A stretch of DNA of 36,603 nucleotides from IMG/VR virus record IMGVR_UViG_3300037504_000820, positions 1 through 36,603 of that record. One strand, written 5' to 3'. A model generated the notes under the pieces. That model worked only from the letters and a program-made list of their open reading frames with translations. It was not told the origin of the DNA and did no database searches. Position 1 is the stretch's first letter, and each line of letters begins with the position of its first letter. Origin of the DNA: a virus. Below, in pieces: positions 23,262 through 36,182 of the stretch. Position numbers and translations under genes: made by a program.

Positions 23262-23641
23262 TGCGATTACTTGCACTGGTTGTGGCACTTGCGACATTGT
23301 CCGGGTGCAGTTATGCTGCCGGGCCATTTCACATTTACGGGGGAATGAGTTATGCGCCTGTTGGCGATGCGCAACACGATACAGCGCTGCCGGTGCCAAC
23401 TGCCGAGTCCTGGCCGCGAACACCGGTACCGACCATCGCGCCAACACGAACGTGTACAGTGACCAGTGCACGCGGGTTGGTCATTCGCGCAGGACCGGGG
23501 GTCGAACACGCGCGCTTGGGCGTCGTGCTGGACGGAACTCGATTGGTAGTCGTGGATGAAAACGAGCCGGGCGACTGGGTGCAAATCGAGGGGCGAGATT
23601 TGCACCCAGCCGGATGGGTGGCCGGGTGGCTATGCGAATGA
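23261..23641 (+). CDS. Predicted lipoprotein with SH3b domain
   Basis: This 126-residue protein has a lipoprotein signal peptide MRLLALVVALATLSGC with lipobox LSGC and lipidated Cys16. A Pro/Thr-rich linker (VPTAESWPRTPVPTIAPTRT) leads to an SH3b domain from about residue 64: TVTSARGLVIRAGPGVEHARLG, VVDENEPGDWVQIEG, GWVAGWL. SH3b domains bind peptidoglycan or peptides. An exported lipoprotein on a phage could alter the host surface or superinfection (conversion function) or help lysis. Its 3' end overlaps the end of the opposing cysH-like gene by 12 bases. Confidence 0.8.
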   Translation: MRLLALVVALATLSGCSYAAGPFHIYGGMSYAPVGDAQHDTALPVPTAESWPRTPVPTIAPTRTCTVTSARGLVIRAGPGVEHARLGVVLDGTRLVVVDENEPGDWVQIEGRDLHPAGWVAGWLCE

Positions 23642-24388
23642 CTGGACAACGGGATTCGCCGCACAGAAGCTGTTCCATAGTTCGGGATACAGTTGTTTTA
23701 CGTGGACCATTGTGCCATATTGATACACGCGCACTGCCGTGAGCGGGCCAACGCGAGCATACGGCACATCAACTCCACCATCGATCAGCACCTGGTATGC
23801 GGGATGTACAATTAAATCACGACTGAATGTGTAGGCCCATACATCCTGCCACGTCCAATCATAAATTGGATCGCAATGCCATACGCTCAATGTCTGATTC
23901 CAGCGTAACGCACCGCGCGCAACAGCAAACGTGCGCTTGCTGCTTTCTTCGGCCCGAAGTCCTAAAAATTCTGCGTCAATTTTATAATGCCTGAGCGTTT
24001 CGCTGATATGATCACACTCAAAATCAACTGGCATACGATGGGGTGCGACCGGGCGACAGCCGAATTCATCGATAAATTCGCGTGCGCCATCCCGCTCATG
24101 CACGCGATGGATACGCATAGTATACCGTTGCTCAGTTTCCGTTAGTGTCTCCTGCGTGCCGGGCAAATCCCACAAATCATCGTGCCACATGACGCTTGCA
24201 TCTGGCCGAATAGCTAGTACTAAATCGAGTACGACCATACTGTCCTTGCCCGTGCTAAATGACACATTAGGCCGGTCGCTTTGAATCAAGCACTCTTGAA
24301 TCAAAGACTGGGCGCTTTCGATCTTGTGTTTTAGCCGAGGTATTCTGGCGTATATTAATGACGTTTTGCGCAATGTGGCATAGTTCAT
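23630..24388 (-). CDS. cysH: CysH-like PAPS reductase family protein of the type IV-B locus
   Basis: This 252-residue protein is of the adenine nucleotide alpha-hydrolase (PP-loop) superfamily. The PP-loop is SFSTGKDSM (43-51), followed by WHDDLWDLPGTQETL. The family's second signature is GLRAEESSKR (143-152), and the third region is HCDPIYDWTWQDVWAY. The C-terminal ECGxH motif of true PAPS reductases is not seen, so sulfate assimilation is unlikely. It is the last gene of the csf operon, with an ATGA overlap with csf3. A CysH-like gene next to csf1-cas11-csf2-csf3 is a known hallmark of subtype IV-B; its biochemical role there is unsettled. Confidence 0.85.
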   Translation of the reverse strand: MNYATLRKTSLIYARIPRLKHKIESAQSLIQECLIQSDRPNVSFSTGKDSMVVLDLVLAIRPDASVMWHDDLWDLPGTQETLTETEQRYTMRIHRVHERDGAREFIDEFGCRPVAPHRMPVDFECDHISETLRHYKIDAEFLGLRAEESSKRTFAVARGALRWNQTLSVWHCDPIYDWTWQDVWAYTFSRDLIVHPAYQVLIDGGVDVPYARVGPLTAVRVYQYGTMVHVKQLYPELWNSFCAANPVVQSFA

Positions 24389-25065
24389 AGAGCAACTTTT
24401 GTCTGATTTTCACGCGCCCAGTAAGGCGGGCGAAATCCTCGATTGCCAAACCGAATATCGCGCAAAGTGGAATCAAGTCCCGAATCACGAATGGCCTGTG
24501 CATAATATGACGATGGAATAGCCCGTGTCAACTGTCCATCACTATCAAATATACTGTAATCATGCTCAGCAGGGAAAATATGCCATGTATGAATATACCC
24601 CCATCCTATGCTGCGCTTTTTACCAATTGCAATGCAATCGGACAATAAGTGCCCAATTGCGTCGATATCCCCAACACAGTACCAGCGCACGTAACGCGCG
24701 GCGCGATAGTATATTGGCATATGATATGATTTGTAGGGGCCGGAACTGCTGTCAATTTTGCGACCAGAGGCCAGCACATTGTTATGCTGGATATCAAATC
24801 GCTTGTTCCAGTAGGCACGATTTTCGATATATTCGGACCACTGTGCAAACGAACACGCGTAAAACCATTCGCGGCCAGGATTGACAATCTGTAGCGGGAC
24901 AATAGCTGGATCATATTCGACAGCCTCGCCGGGACGCATAGCTCTTGGTGGCCCAAATTTACGGGCCATCACATGAAACAATAAAATGCCATCGAGGGGA
25001 ATCGTGGGATCGCCGACAACCGGTGACCCTAACTCCGCCTCAACGATCAGAGAACGGTATGCCAT
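24385..25065 (-). CDS. csf3: Csf3 (Cas5-like) of type IV CRISPR-Cas
   Basis: This 226-residue RAMP-type protein is expected to cap the 5' end of the guide RNA in the type IV effector. The start at 25065 (MAYRSLIVEAELGSPVV) lies 5 bases after GAGGT (25075-25071); an upstream TTG at 25077 is less likely. The beginning resembles Csf3/Csx-type RAMPs (an opening strand followed by GDPTIPLDGILLFHV). A glycine-rich loop GKKRSIGWG lies at 148-156, as in Cas5/Csf3 proteins, ahead of YIHTWHI. It overlaps csf2 (26 bases) and cysH, placing it in the expected IV-B order. Confidence 0.8.
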   Translation of the reverse strand: MAYRSLIVEAELGSPVVGDPTIPLDGILLFHVMARKFGPPRAMRPGEAVEYDPAIVPLQIVNPGREWFYACSFAQWSEYIENRAYWNKRFDIQHNNVLASGRKIDSSSGPYKSYHMPIYYRAARYVRWYCVGDIDAIGHLLSDCIAIGKKRSIGWGYIHTWHIFPAEHDYSIFDSDGQLTRAIPSSYYAQAIRDSGLDSTLRDIRFGNRGFRPPYWARENQTKVAL

Positions 25066-25930
25066 GCAGTACCTCAATTATCTCATCGCGGTGCGCGAGC
25101 ATATGCTCTGTATAAGATGCTGGCACCGGCGGCGCGATGCCATCTAGTGGATCGATTTCCAGGTCTGGGCGGTCGTGCATTTCGACTCGTACTAGCCCAT
25201 GCCCAATGCGACCCATACCACCCAGGATGGCACGCTGCGCCCACAACGCATATGCAGCCAAAAATGCATCGTGCTCCAATGCGCCACCAAAAGACAGCGC
25301 AGCATGCCAATAAAATTGTGTGCCTGCGGCTAACGTCTGGACTGTGTAACGCATCTGCTGGACGCGATCATCACGATCTGAGAGATAGTTTGATAAATTG
25401 CCGTTCTTGCTGTCGTCGCTACGTGTGTACTCCGTTTCCTGTAGGACATCGGCGACGCTTGGTAGATATTCCGCATCGTGATATTGTTCCGGCACAATGT
25501 GCCGCGTTTCGTGCAAAATAGGAATAATCATGCCTACATTAAAACGGCCGGGCATGATAAAGTTGCCGGAACTGCCGCCGAGCAGTGACAGTGATGGCAG
25601 CAGGCGACGAATGTAGCTGTCGTATTCGGGATCGTAGGTTGTGCCAGGATTGAGCACACTGGTCTTTTTCGACAAGCCACCGCCGCCGAATAGAAGATGA
25701 AAGACATCCCCCTCAAGCGTGATTTGCAATGTGTCGCATAGGTGGCGCGCTAATTCATCCCGAAACTGCCCGCGAATACTATTGCCGGTTATTGCCGGTA
25801 TAGATTCTGCGGTTCCGTCAGATTGAATGATTGTCATGCTATTAAATTCGGCGATGTTGCCAAACGTGTCGCCGTTGTGGGTGATCGGCGAGAGTGCCGT
25901 CATTACTGCGTTATATCGGATCGCTGCCAT
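25040..25930 (-). CDS. csf2: Csf2 (Cas7-like backbone) of type IV CRISPR-Cas
   Basis: This 296-residue RAMP protein polymerises along RNA in type IV complexes. It begins IRYNAVMTALSPITHNGDTFGN, followed by IPAITGNSIRGQFRDELARHL (about 44-64), the Cas7/Csf2 N-terminal motif. FGGGG lies at 81-85, and GRFNVGMIIPIL and GGMGRIGHGLVRVE (about 237-250) form the conserved glycine loop. Ribosome site GGAAAG precedes the ATG at 25930. The length fits Csf2. It overlaps the upstream small-subunit gene by 20 bases. Some phage tail or metabolic proteins also use RAMP folds, but the neighbours make Csf2 far more likely. Confidence 0.85.
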   Translation of the reverse strand: MAAIRYNAVMTALSPITHNGDTFGNIAEFNSMTIIQSDGTAESIPAITGNSIRGQFRDELARHLCDTLQITLEGDVFHLLFGGGGLSKKTSVLNPGTTYDPEYDSYIRRLLPSLSLLGGSSGNFIMPGRFNVGMIIPILHETRHIVPEQYHDAEYLPSVADVLQETEYTRSDDSKNGNLSNYLSDRDDRVQQMRYTVQTLAAGTQFYWHAALSFGGALEHDAFLAAYALWAQRAILGGMGRIGHGLVRVEMHDRPDLEIDPLDGIAPPVPASYTEHMLAHRDEIIEVLHGIPFSDR

Positions 25931-26252
25931 GCTGTTCTTTCCATTCCTGGTGCATCAAGCGCACCATTGCGATTATATAGGCTGTTTCCTGACGGCAAAT
26001 TCGCAGGATTTCTGACTGTTCCGATTGCGACAACTGCTTGACGACTTCAAAGTCCTCCTGGGTATATCCCAGTGAGGATTGAAGCTTACGAGCCATGCCG
26101 GACAACATAAGTTCCACGCTGCGCTGGCGTGCATAAAAAGCCAGTCGTGTCTCCATTTGTTGCCAGATTGTTTTTCCGTATTGGCTGCGATATTCGGGAT
26201 TAATCCCGCGATAAATCGCATATACCGCCCGAACGATTAAATCGTATGGCAT
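25911..26252 (-). CDS. cas11: Cas11-like small subunit of the type IV-B effector
   Basis: This 113-residue protein is almost entirely helical by composition (IWQQMETRLAFYARQRSVELMLSGMARKLQ, EDFEVVKQLSQSEQSEILRICRQE) and lacks any enzymatic motif. Small helical Cas11 subunits line the inner face of type IV complexes. In IV-B their gene sits between csf1 and csf2, as here. A GGAGAT ribosome site precedes the ATG at 26252. The gene overlaps both neighbours. The call rests on position, size and helicity; direct sequence similarity cannot be judged by eye. Confidence 0.65.
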   Translation of the reverse strand: MPYDLIVRAVYAIYRGINPEYRSQYGKTIWQQMETRLAFYARQRSVELMLSGMARKLQSSLGYTQEDFEVVKQLSQSEQSEILRICRQETAYIIAMVRLMHQEWKEQHGSDPI

Positions 26253-26995
26253 GATATCTCCGTTTTCTGAACTAAGTACACCGCAAGATTAAACATAGCA
26301 TTGCCACGCTGCGTTTTTATCGCCATTTCATGCGTGCGCCACAAATTGAGATCACATCCTGGCACTAATACGTACTGGCTCGACAAAATAGCGTGTTTGC
26401 TATGTCCAGCCTCATACAATGCTTTGATATGCGCAATGAGATCAGAAAAAAAAGATTGGTCGAGCCAGATGTGATGTGTCTCGAAAAACACCCATCCTGC
26501 TTTAGTGCCTGGCGGGTTTGCTCGCGCTTTCCATCCAGTGTATTTTTGCCCACTTTCAGTGATCGCGGCTACGGCAGGGAAACCCGCAGGCGACAGCAGT
26601 AAATCGAGCATTTGTTGCTTATCTCCCTTGCTACAGGGTATCCATCCACTGGTGGTGGCAAAGTGCGAATAATTAATCATGCGCTGCGGTTTGTCTTTGC
26701 CGGTATGCATCTGAAGTTCAACCGATTTGGCGTCTGTTGCCCACTGGCACGCAGCGCAAACGCCTGCTGCTATGTCGCCCACACAGGATGATTGATCAGT
26801 AAAGGATGGCTTTACCCATTGCGCTGTTGGTATTGCTCCATATGCCGGACCACCACACAACCAGCACGAACCGTTCGCTCTGCCATGCAGCATATGCCCA
26901 GCAGACACAAACAAATGCTGGCTGGCACTAACAGGTTTACGTTGATATAGGTGGAGTGAGATCATCCACTCGACGTTATATTCGTCAATTTGCAT
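26237..26995 (-). CDS. csf1: Csf1 (Cas8-like, zinc finger) of type IV CRISPR-Cas
   Basis: This 252-residue protein is expected to be the large-subunit-like Csf1. A zinc-finger pattern of two CxxC pairs is seen: CWLCGGP (Cys44, Cys47) and CAAC (Cys80, Cys83), typical of Csf1. After it come long charged and hydrophobic stretches (GKDKPQRMINYSHFATTSGW, AITESGQKYTGWKAR, FFETHHIWLDQSFFSDLIAHIKALYEAGHSKHA). AGAGG precedes the ATG at 26995, inside the regulator gene; an in-frame ATG ten codons later is an alternative. It is the first cas gene of the operon. Csf1 would bind guide or target DNA at the complex foot. Confidence 0.82.
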   Translation of the reverse strand: MQIDEYNVEWMISLHLYQRKPVSASQHLFVSAGHMLHGRANGSCWLCGGPAYGAIPTAQWVKPSFTDQSSCVGDIAAGVCAACQWATDAKSVELQMHTGKDKPQRMINYSHFATTSGWIPCSKGDKQQMLDLLLSPAGFPAVAAITESGQKYTGWKARANPPGTKAGWVFFETHHIWLDQSFFSDLIAHIKALYEAGHSKHAILSSQYVLVPGCDLNLWRTHEMAIKTQRGNAMFNLAVYLVQKTEISCHTI

Positions 26996-27273
26996 TTCAA
27001 GGCCTCTGCGCCGTTAAGGTCATTGCAACATCGCGCATTGACTGCGGGTGACGTTGGGACTATCAGCGGAAAAATCTTGTAGTACGGCACGCCGAATATC
27101 GCTTGAAGCGTAGCTGCTTTTTCCGCGCTGAGTGTCGGGTACGGCTCGCGCTGCCATTTTGACACAGCTGTTCGCGTCACACCAGCCCGGCGAGCCAGTT
27201 CGCTAGGTGTGATGTCCATCAGTTCCATCAGCTCGCGCAGCCGATTACCCCAGTAGGGGGTATTTTTATCCAT
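26962..27273 (-). CDS. XRE/Cro-CI-type regulator heading the csf operon
   Basis: This 103-residue protein has a classic helix-turn-helix: RLRELMELMDITPSELARRAGVTRTAVSKWQREP (about 11-44). A short C-terminal part follows with no peptidase motif, so it lacks a LexA-like self-cleavage domain. An AAAGGG ribosome site precedes the ATG at 27273. The gene overlaps the csf1 start by 34 bases and is transcribed with it from the leftward promoter at 27322-27350. It faces the early genes across mirror-image promoters, the usual site for a phage repressor that controls itself and the early operon. Confidence 0.88.
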   Translation of the reverse strand: MDKNTPYWGNRLRELMELMDITPSELARRAGVTRTAVSKWQREPYPTLSAEKAATLQAIFGVPYYKIFPLIVPTSPAVNARCCNDLNGAEALKCKLTNITSSG

Positions 27274-27321
27274 AAGCTACCCTTTCACTCAGCACGGTGT
27301 GTTTTAATGACCTCACTTTCA

Positions 27322-27350
27322 ATTTTAAAGTATTTTTCAGGCCATGTCAA
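27322..27350 (-). promoter_or_regulatory. Leftward sigma70 promoter for regulator and csf operon
   Basis: Read leftward, the -35 element TTGACA (27350-27345) is perfect, the spacer is 17 bases, and the -10 element is TAAAAT (27327-27322), one mismatch from consensus. Transcription would start near 27315, giving a leader of about 40 bases before the XRE gene. Its -35 and spacer sequence is nearly the same as the opposing promoter. Confidence 0.85.
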
Positions 27351-27401
27351 ATAGGTCGCAGCAATACATAAAACAACTTGGTTGACACGGCTTAAAAAAT
27401 A
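27331..27401. repeat. 20-bp inverted repeat joining the divergent promoters
   Basis: TTGACACGGCTTAAAAAATA on the top strand (27382-27401) matches TTGACATGGCCTGAAAAATA on the bottom strand (27350-27331) at 17 of 20 positions; spacer 31 bp. Each arm covers a -35 box and most of the -35/-10 spacer. The match beyond the -35 hexamer makes shared regulation, probably by the XRE protein, likely; chance is unlikely but not excluded. Confidence 0.7.
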
Positions 27402-27410
27402 TGCTATGAT
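27382..27410 (+). promoter_or_regulatory. Rightward sigma70 promoter for the early operon
   Basis: TTGACA (27382-27387), 17-base spacer, TATGAT (27405-27410): a near-consensus promoter. Start of transcription would fall near 27417, before the gene at 27449. It diverges from the leftward csf promoter with 31 bases between the two -35 boxes. Confidence 0.85.
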
Positions 27411-27448
27411 CATACTAAGAATAGCGAACACGAACGGGAGTTCTAAAG

Positions 27449-27685
27449 ATGTATTACACCAAGATCGAAGAAGCACAAGCGGCAGCGATGTCTGTGAAGT
27501 TCATTATTAACAATGGTGGCAAATGGGATGAAACCACCAGCCGGATGCACTGCTGTGACGCAGTGTATAGAGACGCACGTTACATTCAGCGAACCATCCG
27601 CAAATGGGCATGCAGTCAAAAAGAAGCGTACCATGCGGCTGTGGCTGCATGGCTCGAAGAAAAAGAAGCCGGACGCGCGCTCTAA
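27449..27685 (+). CDS. Small early protein of unknown function
   Basis: This 78-residue protein starts behind GGGAG (27436-27440) and is the first gene of the early operon. Its position mirrors that of Cro-like proteins, but no helix-turn-helix is visible. The sequence is helical with a Cys pair (SRMHCCDAVYRDARYIQRTIRKWACSQKEAYHAAVAAWLEEKEAG). Candidate functions, such as a host takeover or counter-repression factor, are not supported by sequence. Confidence 0.65.
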   Translation: MYYTKIEEAQAAAMSVKFIINNGGKWDETTSRMHCCDAVYRDARYIQRTIRKWACSQKEAYHAAVAAWLEEKEAGRAL

Positions 27686-29560: not shown

Positions 29561-29589
29561 TCGACAAACAATGTCTTGCGTTATACAAT
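29561..29589 (+). promoter_or_regulatory. Candidate promoter before the helicase gene
   Basis: TCGACA (29561-29566), 17-base spacer and TACAAT (29584-29589) each differ by one base from consensus. Position, between stop at 29557 and ribosome site at 29607, fits an internal early promoter. Shorter alternatives are possible, so this is moderate evidence. Confidence 0.5.
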
Positions 29590-29623
29590 CATATATACGC
29601 ACAGGCAAGGAGGAACCCAACTC

Positions 29624-31981
29624 ATGACCGCACCCCAACCCCCCAATGCAGCACAGATCAAGGCTTTCAAACCTTCGAAGTACCAGCAGGCGATTTTTGA
29701 CGCAATCGCGGACAAAAACGGCCCTCAGTACATTGTAGTAGAGGCTTACGCCGGTAGTGGTAAAACGACCACACTGGTTAAAGCCGCAACTGAGTATGTT
29801 GACCCCTCACTGAGCGTGCTGTTTTGCGCGTTCAACAAATCGATTGCAACTGAAATTGGCGAACGTGTAGCCGGTCGCTCGAATGTGAATAGCTCCACCC
29901 TTCACAGCTTGGGTAAGCGTGCCTTAGATAAGCACTTCGGTACACGTACCCAGGTCAACACCAAAAAGCATTACCAACTCATTGACGCCTACATTGATGA
30001 GCATCACCCTGGGCCTGAAATTGTTAAGGGGCGCAAAGGTGAGCGTATTTTTCTTACGCAAGAGGGGCGACTCTTGCAAGAGGCTATGATCGATCTGTAC
30101 AACTTCGCTCGCCTGACCATGACCGATCCCAACAACCGCCCCGCTTTAGAGCAAATGGCGATCCATTATCAAATTGATCTGGATGATCGCGCGCTCAATG
30201 CGTGCCCCATCCTGATCAAGCGTGGCGAAGACCTGGCCCGTGAAAACCGGGAAATTGATTTCACGGATATGATCTATTTGCCGGTACACTGGGATATTGA
30301 TATGCCCAAGTTTGATTGGGTATTCTGTGACGAATCCCAGGATTTAAATAAGTGCCAGCTTGAGTTAGCCCTCAAGTGCCGCAAGCCTGACACTGGGCGC
30401 ATGGTGTTTGTTGGTGATCGTCGCCAAGCTATCTATGGCTTTGCCGGGGCAGATAACAAGTCACTCCAAAACATCATTGACCGCACCCAGGCAACCACCC
30501 TCCCCCTTTCAATCTGCTATCGGTGCGCAACCTCAATTTTGGACTTGGCGCGCGAAGTAACCCCACAAATCGAAGCACGCGAGGGCGCACCAGTCGGTAA
30601 AGTAACCATCATCCCTGAAGACAAATTGCCCGACTACGCCAAGCCGGACGATATGATCGTATGTCGGTTAACCGCCCCGCTGATTTCTGAGTGTATCGCC
30701 TTTATCAAGCGTGGCGTGAAGGCGCGCGTTGAGGGTCGCGACCTCGGTAAACAACTGAACAAGATCGTTAAATCGGTCGCCCAACGTGAACATTTTGATT
30801 TCGATTTGTTCCTTGAACATCTGCATAACTACAAAATGCAGCAAGTCAAAATGCTACGCGATAAGCAGGCAGATGATACCGCCGTCGAAAGCATGAAAGA
30901 CCGCTGTGAAGCGGTAAGCGTCGTATACGAAGGTATGCAATCTGGCAATGTCGATCAACTGTGCAACAAGATCGACTCCCTGTTTGATGAAAAATACCCA
31001 TTAATCAAACTGGCAACCGTTCACCGCTGCAAGGGGCTGGAAGCCGACCGCGTGTTTATCATCGCCCCGAACAAGCTACCCCTAAACCTCGGTGGCTGGC
31101 AGCAAGAGCAAGAGTGGAATTTACGCTATGTTGCCGTAACTCGCGCTAAATACGAATTGTTCATCGTGGGTGGCCCTCTGACGCCAGGTCCCTACGCCGC
31201 TGGGCAACCCAAGATCGTGACCAAAGGTTCCAGCTCACCCGACATTGACGCGATTGTTTCCCACGCCGCCGCCAATATCGAAAAAGAAGAAATACAACAA
31301 CTATTGGACCAGATCGAACAAGCCCAGGGACTCCGCGATCCCAACATGCCCCAGCAGGCAAAAGACGACCTGCTGCATGAACTGGACGCAGAAACCGACA
31401 ACGAGTCCCATTCCCCTGATGATTCCCCCAAACGCGAATGGGTACGTTGCCGCACCTGTGGGCAAAAATTCCCGCCTAACATGCTCGATAACTACGTGTG
31501 CAATCTGTGCCTTGAAGACCCGGAAATCAAAGAGTCTCACGACGCAATGAAAGCACACAAGGCGGAACAACCCCTTGTACTTTCGAAACGTGACCGGGAA
31601 CGCGCCGAACTACAACGCCTATTCGGTCGCAAGTCAGAAACCGCACCAGACGCGCAAAAAGGCACCCAGGAGCGACGAGGACCCGAATCGGATGTGAACC
31701 CCGCAGGTCACAGCGGGGGCATGAAAACACCCGCCATGTATCGCCAGCAGCGTATGTTTGCGCCAGCGGAAAACAACGATCACATGCTATCGGACAATGA
31801 CGCCGCGCTACTAAACAAGCTCAACAACCTGCCGGAAATCGAAACCCCGGCGAAAAACAACCCGCTTGCCGAATTTGAAGGCAGGCTGGACACCATCGAC
31901 AACCCTGAAGTGAAACAAGACGCGATTGAAGCGCTTGAGGTACTTCGGGACATTTTCGGAGACAACCCCCCTCAGAAGTGA
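29624..31981 (+). CDS. SF1 UvrD/Rep-like DNA helicase with C-terminal zinc ribbon
   Basis: This 785-residue protein starts behind AAGGAGGA (29607-29614). Helicase motifs are complete. Motif I AGSGKTTT is at 43-50; Walker B/motif II is FCDESQDLN (about 234-242); motif III is VGDRRQAIYGFAG (about 263-275). CYRC (298-301) is motif IV-like, motif V is LATVHRCKGLEADRVFII and motif VI is YVAVTRAKYELFIV. A zinc ribbon CRTC-x13-CNLC (Cys609, 612, 626, 629) and an acidic, low-complexity tail follow. It probably unwinds DNA during phage replication or recombination. It is SF1, unlike the SF2 DinG of type IV-A, so it is not Csf4. A hairpin spans the stop codon. Confidence 0.9.
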   Translation: MTAPQPPNAAQIKAFKPSKYQQAIFDAIADKNGPQYIVVEAYAGSGKTTTLVKAATEYVDPSLSVLFCAFNKSIATEIGERVAGRSNVNSSTLHSLGKRALDKHFGTRTQVNTKKHYQLIDAYIDEHHPGPEIVKGRKGERIFLTQEGRLLQEAMIDLYNFARLTMTDPNNRPALEQMAIHYQIDLDDRALNACPILIKRGEDLARENREIDFTDMIYLPVHWDIDMPKFDWVFCDESQDLNKCQLELALKCRKPDTGRMVFVGDRRQAIYGFAGADNKSLQNIIDRTQATTLPLSICYRCATSILDLAREVTPQIEAREGAPVGKVTIIPEDKLPDYAKPDDMIVCRLTAPLISECIAFIKRGVKARVEGRDLGKQLNKIVKSVAQREHFDFDLFLEHLHNYKMQQVKMLRDKQADDTAVESMKDRCEAVSVVYEGMQSGNVDQLCNKIDSLFDEKYPLIKLATVHRCKGLEADRVFIIAPNKLPLNLGGWQQEQEWNLRYVAVTRAKYELFIVGGPLTPGPYAAGQPKIVTKGSSSPDIDAIVSHAAANIEKEEIQQLLDQIEQAQGLRDPNMPQQAKDDLLHELDAETDNESHSPDDSPKREWVRCRTCGQKFPPNMLDNYVCNLCLEDPEIKESHDAMKAHKAEQPLVLSKRDRERAELQRLFGRKSETAPDAQKGTQERRGPESDVNPAGHSGGMKTPAMYRQQRMFAPAENNDHMLSDNDAALLNKLNNLPEIETPAKNNPLAEFEGRLDTIDNPEVKQDAIEALEVLRDIFGDNPPQK

Positions 31982-32007: not shown

Positions 32008-32201
32008 ATGTCACTACCAAAAAAGGTCTACAAACACGTCAAAAAACAATACAAAGATATGCCCTGGTGGAGCGTATTTGGACGTATACAACAGACAGCA
32101 AGATCAAGCGCTACGACCGCATCAAACTAGGCTTGATGCTTCACGCCCTGGAAGCCGATGTGTGCCCCCCATTTTATCTTATCGAAATCGAAGGAGAGTA
32201 A
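32008..32201 (+). CDS. Small gene probably decoded by -1 frameshift
   Basis: An ATG at 32008 behind AAAGGG (31995-32000) starts MSLPKKVYKHVKKQ but this frame stops after 40 codons. The -1 frame is open to 32201 and looks protein-like (RYALVERIWTYTTD, KIKRYDRIKLGLMLHALEADVCPPFYLIE), ending just before the next ribosome site. Codons five and six sit on an A_AAA_AAG heptamer (32019-32025), which would move ribosomes to that frame, giving a 64-residue product that starts MSLPKKGLQTRQ. A one-base homopolymer error in assembly is the alternative. Function is unknown. Confidence 0.5.
32019..32025 (+). other. A_AAA_AAG slippery heptamer
   Basis: In the frame of the ATG at 32008 the codons are CCA AAA AAG, so A_AAA_AAG lies in the exact X_XXY_YYZ phase used for -1 frameshifting in E. 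coli dnaX. The -1 frame is open for the next 180 bases while the zero frame stops at 32128-32130. No strong stimulatory hairpin was found directly after it by eye. Confidence 0.5.
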
Positions 32202-32205
32202 CCCA

Positions 32206-33591
32206 ATGACCGACAATAACAACGAAATGATCATCGACCAGGAACCCGAAAAGGAACAAGCGCTTGCTCCCCTGCCCGAAACCGGGCTTTATTCCCTTGA
32301 ACCTCGCACGCTCAAAGAAGTCCAGTCTATCGCGCTGGTATTCGCACAGTCCGGTATGTTTGAAGGCGTAAACGCAATGGCTCACGCTTTCGTCAAGATT
32401 ATGCAAGGTCGCGAATTGGGGTTCACCGCTGTTGAGAGCATGACCGGCATTCACGTAATTAAGGGGAAGCCGGTCGTTGGCGCTCACCTGATCGCCGCTG
32501 GTATTCGTCGAAGTTCGCAGTACGATTACGATGTAGAAGAACTTGACAACGAACGTTGCACAATCGTGCTATTCAAAAACGGGAAACCGTTTAAGCGCGA
32601 AACGTTCACCATCGAGGATGCCAAACAGGCTGGACTGACCAATAGCAACAATTGGCAGAAGTACCCGCGCAACATGCTTTTTGCACGCACGATCAGCAAC
32701 ATTCAAAAATTCCACTGTCCGGATGTTTTCAATATGCCGGTTTATGGTCCTGATGAAATGGGCCTAGATGTGGATGAACAGGGCAACGCAATCATCGAAG
32801 GCGAATTCGAGTATGTGCCCGAAACCCGCCCCGCCCCGAAAGATAAACCTGCCGAGCGCAAAAGCAAGCCGCACCAGCAGACGCCCCCCACCCCGCCAAA
32901 GCCCGACCAGAAAGAAAAAATGTGGCAGGACCACATTGAAGGATGGACACAGCAGAAATGGGGCGAATATTGGATCGCTATGAAGTCCATCGGGTTGGAC
33001 AAAAAAGGACGCCTGGCAATTGAACAGGCGACCCGTCCAATTGGGCTGACCAATGACGAAGTTCACGCTGCGCTCGGTGTGGAAAGCGTCAAAGATTTCC
33101 AGGACACTTACGCCGCGCACCAGGCGGCTATCCTGGACGCGGTCACCAAAAAAGCCAAAGCGCAACAATCCACCACCAAGCCCGGCACGCCATTCGCGCC
33201 ACCTGCCGATGACGAACCCACCGAACATCAAAGCAAAGGGGTGAGTATGTCAGGTGACTTTGGCGAGATTACCGCCAGCCGCGTGATCCTCATCGACCGC
33301 ACCAAAACCGAAACCTACAACAACCCGTTAATTGAAGTCTTTGCGATTAACGAAAATACCGGCGAAGAAGACCCAATGCCCGCAATCCCCCAGCGCGAAC
33401 TCTTGGATGATGAGGTTGAGCTGCTAAACAAAGTGATCCCATTTCCAGCGAAAATTGGCAAAGTGCAGGGATCAATGTGGTACAGCTTCGAAGATGCGTC
33501 CGAGGAAGACCCAAACGATCCCAAGTTGGTTCTGCTGACCTGGGAGCGCGAGAACGAAGTGGCGATCATCACTGAAGTGAATATCATCTAA
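32206..33591 (+). CDS. RecT/Red-beta-like single-strand annealing protein candidate
   Basis: This 461-residue protein starts at ATG 32206 behind AAGGAGAG (32191-32198). Residues about 40-190 match the pattern of a phage family often annotated as RecT-like or recombination-associated: ALVFAQSGMFEGVNAMAHAFVKIMQGRELGFTAVESMTGIHVIKGKPVV, then NNWQKYPRNMLFARTISNIQKFHCPDVF. The KPVVGAHLIAAGIRRS segment and the conserved ARxISN are typical. The middle is Pro/Lys-rich (PAPKDKPAERKSK, TPPTPPKP) and the C-terminus forms a separate acidic domain. It likely anneals ssDNA during replication or recombination with the helicase gene upstream. Confidence 0.6.
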   Translation: MTDNNNEMIIDQEPEKEQALAPLPETGLYSLEPRTLKEVQSIALVFAQSGMFEGVNAMAHAFVKIMQGRELGFTAVESMTGIHVIKGKPVVGAHLIAAGIRRSSQYDYDVEELDNERCTIVLFKNGKPFKRETFTIEDAKQAGLTNSNNWQKYPRNMLFARTISNIQKFHCPDVFNMPVYGPDEMGLDVDEQGNAIIEGEFEYVPETRPAPKDKPAERKSKPHQQTPPTPPKPDQKEKMWQDHIEGWTQQKWGEYWIAMKSIGLDKKGRLAIEQATRPIGLTNDEVHAALGVESVKDFQDTYAAHQAAILDAVTKKAKAQQSTTKPGTPFAPPADDEPTEHQSKGVSMSGDFGEITASRVILIDRTKTETYNNPLIEVFAINENTGEEDPMPAIPQRELLDDEVELLNKVIPFPAKIGKVQGSMWYSFEDASEEDPNDPKLVLLTWERENEVAIITEVNII

Positions 33592-33606: not shown

Positions 33607-34656
33607 ATGGACACTACTGTTGAGAATTTGCTAGAACGCTACAAGGTCGCGTGCAACTTCGACCGCCCCGTAGATCGTGAAGCAGTCGAACGCCACCTGC
33701 TTAACTGGTGGTCCGACATTAGCAAAATCCCTATGCGTGTCGAGTTTGTCGACACTGCGCAAGAAATCAAACGGGCCGCCAGGGCCGCCGGGGCCGCCGG
33801 GGCCGCCAGGACCGCCTGGGACGACGCCTGGGCCGCCAGGACCGCCAGGGACGCCAGGGCCGCCTGGGCCGACGCCTGGGCCGCCAGGACCGCCTGGGAC
33901 GCCTGGACCGCCGGGGCCGCCGGGGCCGCCAGGACCGCCTGGGACGCCTGGGACGCCTGGACCGCCAGGGCCGCCTGGGCCGACGCCTGGGCCGACGCCT
34001 GGACCGCCAGGGCCGCCAGCACTTGGTGCATCATCGCAATCGGAGCACGGGAACGAGACGACGACAATTTGTTTTCGCGCTGGTATCCCTTGTTCCAGGC
34101 GTTTGAAGCCGGTTTGTGGCTGTTTTTCGTGTGTGAGGATAAAATGGTTGTCCTCACGCTGCCAACCATTCATAGAGATGAGGACAACCGGTTACATAAA
34201 CTTACCGGCCCCGCGTTTACCTATGGGGATGTCAATGAATACTATGTTCATGGGGTGAACGTCCCCGCCGATATCATTGAAGAACCGAGCAGCATCACGG
34301 CTGCACGGATTGACGCGGAACAAAACGTAGAGGTGCGGCGCATCATGATCGATATGTTTACGCCGGAGCGCTACATCGTCGAGAGCGGCGCGCAAAAGGT
34401 ACATGAGGATACTTATGGTATCCTCTGGCGCAAATCTGTGCCGGGTGACGAAGATATCGTCATGGTGGAAGTTGTCAATTCCACCCCGGAACCGGACGGA
34501 ACACACAAGCATTACTGGCTTCGCGTCGATCCATCTCAATATCACGGTGACGCAGGCAAGTATGCACAAGCTGCCGTCGCGTCCACCGTCCGCGATATAC
34601 ACGGCAATCTGATTTTTTTGGACTGGCGCGATTATGCGCCTATATTTGAGAGCTAG
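33607..34656 (+). CDS. DUF6745-like protein with Ala-rich repeat domain
   Basis: This 349-residue protein starts behind GAGGA (33595-33599). Residues 1-55 form an N-terminal helical region ([25 protein letters not shown]). Residues about 56-138 are a low-complexity repeat of Arg/Gly/Trp-Ala/Thr/Asp-Ala triplets. The C-terminal half ([65 protein letters not shown]) matches DUF6745-like proteins in arrangement, a family of unknown function in bacteria and phages. A partner gene follows. The repeat encodes a probable oligomer or helix-rich linker. Confidence 0.7.
33774..34020 (+). repeat. GC-rich 9-bp-period tandem repeat inside the DUF6745-like gene
   Basis: About 247 bases are built from degenerate 9-mers of the type GCCGCCAGG, GACGCCTGG and ACCGCCTGG. 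In the coding frame they give three-residue units such as RAA, GAA, RTA and WDA. The shift of one frame gives Gly-Pro-Pro, collagen-like triplets and is also open, but it lacks a start of its own and is treated as shadow. The array length is likely to vary by slippage. Confidence 0.85.
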
Positions 34657-35152: not shown

Positions 35153-35228
35153 GCCAGTGTAGCTCAGTTGGTAGAGCGTCCGCCTTGTAAGCGAGTGCGC
35201 GGGGGTTCAAATCCTCTCACTGGCTCCA
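35153..35228 (+). tRNA. tRNA-Thr(UGU)
   Basis: A complete cloverleaf is seen. Acceptor GCCAGTG (35153-35159) pairs with CACTGGC (35218-35224). D stem GCTC/GAGC spans 35162-35165 and 35174-35177. Anticodon loop CTTGTAA (35184-35190) carries UGU. T stem GGGGG pairs with CCTCT around TTCAAAT. The CCA end is encoded (35226-35228). The anticodon stem has one C-A mismatch. UGU reads ACA (Thr). Phage tRNAs usually support codon usage or counter host tRNA loss. Confidence 0.92.
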
Positions 35229-36007: not shown

Positions 36008-36182
36008 ATCGCGCGAACAAAAATAAGCGCAGGCTTTTGGCAGAGCCTAAAATAGCAAAGGACTTGTGATAAAACCCGTTTCGGTGGGTTTTGGTCAACG
36101 TTGCGTTTTACACGTCCTTCGTGACACTGCCAAGACCAATTCCCACCCAAGCGGGTTTTTACGTCTATGGAGGACAATAATA
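36008..36182 (+). promoter_or_regulatory. Attenuator-like structured leader
   Basis: Segment A AAAACCC (36071-36077) pairs with GGGTTTT (36086-36092). Segment B GGTGGGTTTTGGTC (36083-36096) can instead pair with C GACCAATTCCCACC (36134-36147), matching 12 of 14 positions. C ends in ACCC, which can form a short stem with GGGT (36053-36056 plus 100, that is 36153-36156) followed by TTTT. Thus A:B plus C:D (terminator-like) competes with B:C (antiterminator-like), the usual arrangement of an attenuator or riboswitch expression platform. A small hairpin AGGCT/AGCCT lies at 36031-36048. Good ribosome site GGAGGA (36170-36175) precedes the gene. Confidence 0.5.

Follow-up and report, generated by a model that had tools for sequence, protein, structure and literature searches.

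A mirrored repeat at the divergent predicted promoters of a viral type IV-B csf operon as a plausible shared operator

Gene layout around the control region

We begin with the genes on either side of the region, as they lie in the whole stretch of DNA analysed here (the window), a virus contig of 36,603 bases. The late genes (terminase, portal, head protein) occupy the left of the window, and the early plus-strand genes begin at 27449. Between the late and the early plus-strand genes of this tailed-phage contig, a minus-strand block covers positions 23630 to 27273 in the order XRE-csf1-cas11-csf2-csf3-cysH. Its first gene (26962 to 27273, minus strand) encodes an XRE/Cro-C1-type HTH regulator of 103 aa and overlaps the start of csf1 by 34 nt. 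Using PADLOC profiles and Pfam, the genes that follow, all on the minus strand, are assigned as csf1, the Cas8-like large subunit of type IV (26237 to 26995; PDLC01721, 1.5e-22), cas11, the type IV small subunit (25911 to 26252; PDLC01695, 3.2e-10), csf2, the type IV Cas7 (25040 to 25930; PDLC01552, 5.3e-58), csf3, the type IV Cas5 (24385 to 25077; PDLC01727, 2e-52), and a cysH-like gene of the PAPS reductase family (23630 to 24388; PF01507, 5.4e-22). The type IV-B core genes csf1, csf2 and csf3 and also cas11 are all present, and the cysH-like gene, a type IV-B ancillary gene, adjoins the csf set. The window contains no array-like spaced direct repeats that would mark a CRISPR array, and its multi-copy repeats are those of a coding tandem at 33764 to 34017. 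The set of genes and the lack of an array fit type IV-B as described in PMC8175902; what type IV-B complexes do is not known (PMC8175902). An inverted repeat is also seen at 23567 to 23617, near the ends of the cysH-like gene and of the late gene that converges on it; the two frames overlap by 12 bp.

On the other side of the region, the early operon on the plus strand opens with a gene of 78 aa (27449 to 27685) without a family match, the product of which has no HTH match. Farther along the same operon are a UvrD-family helicase (29576 to 31981, plus strand; the listed ORF taken from its first TTG) and a RecT-like annealing protein (32158 to 33591, plus strand). The profile searches and the gene layout confirm the arrangement given in the initial annotation, with the csf operon on one side of the promoters and the early operon on the other. 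Among the ORFs scanned (a subset of the ORFs of a record that may be a fragment), no integrase is found. The coding tandem mentioned above is made of GCC/GAC-rich 9-bp units that read as Ala/Trp/Asp/Arg/Thr repeats, and it sits in an ORF (33607 to 34656) with a DUF6745 domain. Near the right end of the contig are a tRNA-Thr (TGT) gene (35153 to 35228) and a long imperfect inverted repeat, AAAACCCGTTTCGGTGGGT ... CCCACCCAAGCGGGTTTTT (36068 to 36142).

The divergent promoters and their mirrored arms

We turn our attention to the 175-bp intergenic region. Hexamer matching gives a predicted sigma-70 promoter for each operon, both matching at 11 of 12 positions with a 17-bp spacer: TTGACA N17 TAAAAT for the XRE-csf operon (27322 to 27350, minus strand) and TTGACA N17 TATGAT, with an extended -10 TG, for the early operon (27382 to 27410, plus strand). 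The predicted transcription starts would lie near 27315 (minus) and 27417 (plus), about 102 bp apart. Only three sigma-70-like sites of 11/12 with a spacing of 16 to 18 are present in the 36.6 kb window, and two of them are this divergent pair. The third (24502 to 24531, minus strand; TTGACA N18 TATTAT) lies inside the csf3 coding frame and upstream of the cysH-like gene, and may be a chance match.

The two promoters carry the arms of an inverted repeat, each 20 nt long and each composed of the -35 box and 14 bp of the adjoining spacer. Written from the -35 outward, the minus-strand arm of the csf-side promoter (27331 to 27350) reads TTGACATGGCCTGAAAAATA and the plus-strand arm of the early promoter (27382 to 27401) reads TTGACACGGCTTAAAAAATA. 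Both arms start with a perfect TTGACA, 17 of their 20 bases are identical (85% complementary), all three mismatches are transitions, and a gap of 31 bp (27351 to 27381) separates the two -35 boxes. The initial annotation had described both the mirrored divergent promoters and the inverted repeat, and our hexamer matching and repeat search recover the two features, the latter with the same score, gap and coordinates. Within the window no other inverted repeat has at least 17/20 matches with arms 100 bp or less apart. The likeness of the arms is limited to the -35 box together with the 14 spacer bases next to it; it ends short of the -10 boxes, and upstream of the -35 boxes it thins to scattered matches. 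Further copies of the arm consensus are absent from the window, even with 3 mismatches allowed (0.00 expected), and the idea of a regulon of additional arm copies, with no extra one to be found, was dropped.

Can the common sigma-70 boxes account for this likeness? When the intergenic region is shuffled with its dinucleotides preserved, 17/20 is reached in 2 of 2000 shuffles. For a fairer test, the hexamers are held fixed and only the 14 bases beyond the -35 are compared, of which 11 are equal between the arms. This match has a binomial P of 0.7-1.2e-4 (with the intergenic or the spacer base composition), a permutation P of 3e-4 and a P of 2e-3 by dinucleotide shuffles of the 17-bp spacers. 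When promoter-like sites from 147 kb of E. coli K-12 are paired, just 3 of 21,736 pairs do as well. The similarity was spotted first and tested later, so that the effective significance is weaker than the quoted P values. Because the 11/14 match is improbable by chance (about 1e-4 to 2e-3, post hoc), the sigma-70 boxes alone are insufficient to account for the likeness, and the view that the two arms share more than sigma factor motifs is upheld.

The explanation by chance, in which two independent sigma-70 promoters happen to coincide in an A-rich spacer and a GGC after the -35 and only the hexamers matter, is rather unlikely but deserves real weight. The observation is post hoc, the short-spacer shuffles equal it in 2e-3 of pairs, the A-rich run supplies about half of the matched bases in the extension, and the window offers no further copy of the arm. 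The binomial and permutation values (1e-4 to 3e-4), the scarcity of equally good E. coli pairs and the standing of the repeat as the only one of its class in the window speak against coincidence. It is very improbable that the repeat serves as a hairpin or cruciform, for example in single-stranded DNA or in a read-through RNA. The 71-nt segment folded as RNA does reach -18.5 kcal/mol (z -4.7), but any inverted repeat folds well, neither predicted promoter transcribes the segment, and its arms coincide exactly with the -35 boxes.

Candidate operators and the regulation they predict

The best single reading, to which we tentatively give somewhat less than an even chance, is that the mirrored arms form a common operator. 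The region would then control divergent transcription in a tailed phage: of two near-consensus host sigma-70 promoters placed back to back, the left would drive the XRE regulator and then the type IV-B csf set, and the right would drive the early genes for replication and recombination. Most likely, the 14 bp common to both promoters between -35 and -10 would mark a shared binding site, where a single regulator could shut RNA polymerase out of both. The most economical candidate for this regulator would be the XRE protein that the left operon encodes; it is the natural one because its gene is the first of that operon and overlaps the csf1 start. We infer all three elements of this scheme: the promoter activity, the repeat as a binding site and XRE as the binder.

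A common operator would also constrain the type of regulation. Since the arms are alike and take the same position in their promoters, parallel repression is predicted, that is, autoregulation of XRE-csf and repression of the early genes together. The reciprocal tie between csf and early expression that had been proposed in the initial annotation is not supported, unless the affinities of the two sites differ; a reciprocal switch would require such differential affinity or activation.

A different origin for the repeat is that a single promoter was duplicated in inverted orientation, for instance on acquisition of the XRE-csf cassette, after which the copies diverged without a common regulator. 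The inverted orientation of the repeat and mismatches that are all transitions are consistent with this history, but a recent duplication should include the -10 boxes and the upstream sequence, and the likeness stops before the former and fades in the latter. Arms of this extent are more in keeping with a binding site that overlaps the promoter than with a wholesale copy of the promoter, although an old duplication may also account for them; on the whole we consider duplication without a common regulator quite unlikely.

A search for solved relatives of this XRE with known DNA sites returns none at E 0.01. The choice of XRE as the protein that binds the arms meets with evidence on the other side. 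Dimers of XRE proteins usually bind dyad sites. Neither arm is dyad-symmetric in itself and the best palindrome is elsewhere, over the csf -10, and both points weigh against XRE on the arms. This palindrome, ACTTTCAATTTTAAAGT (27315 to 27331), is imperfect, with 7 of 8 pairs in 17 bp; it is the best in the region, where 0.07 are expected, and as a candidate XRE operator it would be at least as good as the arms. A perfect 10-bp palindrome, TATGATCATA (27405 to 27414), lies over the early -10.

It is therefore worth weighing whether XRE acts at these -10 dyads (27315 to 27331, and perhaps 27405 to 27414) and the mirrored spacers are incidental. In favor of this possibility, besides the low expected number for the 17-bp palindrome, is its location from the predicted csf start to about -16, a usual place for autorepression. 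Against it, the two palindromes are unlike in sequence, the shorter one is expected 0.22 times and may be chance, and a second good copy of the 17-mer is absent from the window, where a search for one led to its rejection. We judge action at the -10 dyads improbable, yet like chance and an old promoter duplication it is a rival to be taken seriously. Counted against the common operator itself are the occurrence of the arm only twice in the window, the choice of the similarity once the sequence had been seen, and the failure to find relatives in which its conservation could be followed.

A broader proposal is that a phage regulator, acting through one shared mirrored operator, controls both the early genes and the type IV-B csf genes and places csf in the developmental switch of the phage. 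We regard this proposal as a whole as unlikely; if true, the csf switch would resemble that of cI-rex, with an effector derived from CRISPR, and would indicate at what point, and to what end, a virus employs a type IV-B complex. A viral csf promoter tied to the early promoter would reveal at what stage of the viral cycle the complex appears, and would offer a small test system of one regulator, two promoters and one operon. Should the repeat be a chance likeness or a promoter relic, the region becomes an ordinary divergent phage promoter pair. Taken by itself, the mirrored repeat is slightly unusual, plausibly a shared operator in an otherwise ordinary divergent phage control region, and the main interest of the region is that it is predicted to control a viral type IV-B operon.

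Relatives and comparison with known systems

Co-variation of the two arms in related phages bears directly on the nature of the repeat, and we have searched for relatives by several routes. The intergenic DNA has 0 matches among phages, and the two-arm DNA pattern has 0 among all viral contigs. Scans of viral contigs (IMG/VR) with csf2, csf1, a 500-aa early protein and XRE yield no relatives; those with the helicase and the terminase yield distant homologs only (best segments 32-42% and 28-31%, respectively), none of which has a match to other proteins of the window. Scans of genome contigs (GTDB) with csf2 and the helicase give nothing, and neither does a search with a three-sequence alignment of csf2 give relatives. 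With the queries used, a close relative for arm co-variation is found in none of the annotated phages, plasmids, IMG/VR and GTDB genomes, nor is a close relative of the viral type IV-B system itself (23630 to 27273), an absence that is not strong evidence since some of the scans depend on short exact peptide matches and records very near the window may not have been among those searched. Because such relatives were not found, an operator and a duplicated promoter cannot be told apart here.

We next compare the region with known divergent control regions. In the divergent immunity region of phage lambda, cI and rexAB are expressed from PRM, and cro and the early genes from PR. In the S. aureus phage phi11, three homologous 15-bp operators lie between cI and cro (PMC3991615). 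As in these two phages, the XRE gene (a putative repressor) is transcribed away from the early operon, and a short intergenic region holds both promoters, facing apart; as in lambda, the operon of the regulator continues into accessory genes. Unlike the situation in phi11, no set of homologous operators with dyad symmetry is found, and unlike a lambda-type region, the first early gene has no HTH match that would mark a Cro-like regulator and the accessory set consists of type IV-B csf genes. By analogy, the region may work like a lambda-type immunity region, yet we do not class it as one because it has no family of dyad operators, no HTH match in the first early gene and no integrase among the ORFs scanned.

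The other comparison is with type IV-B loci. Viral type IV-B systems were already known before the present one: PMC10848311 describes one in archaeal viruses, the Fuxiviridae, and notes earlier sightings of type IV systems in several lytic phages as well as in plasmids and prophages. The operon resembles other type IV-B loci (PMC8175902; the Fuxiviridae, PMC10848311; Skermania phage SPI1) in having csf1, cas11, csf2, csf3 and a cysH-like gene with no array seen, and it differs from them in the XRE gene that precedes the csf set in the same operon. In the loci examined, from a Rhodovastum plasmid and the Skermania phage, the genes immediately upstream of csf1 have no HTH match, and XRE as a general partner of csf1 is unsupported by them. 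Both Skermania phage SPI1 and plasmids, among them those of Rhodococcus, carry csf2 homologs at about 30-33% identity. In Rhodovastum and SPI1 the csf genes are followed by one that is cysH-like.
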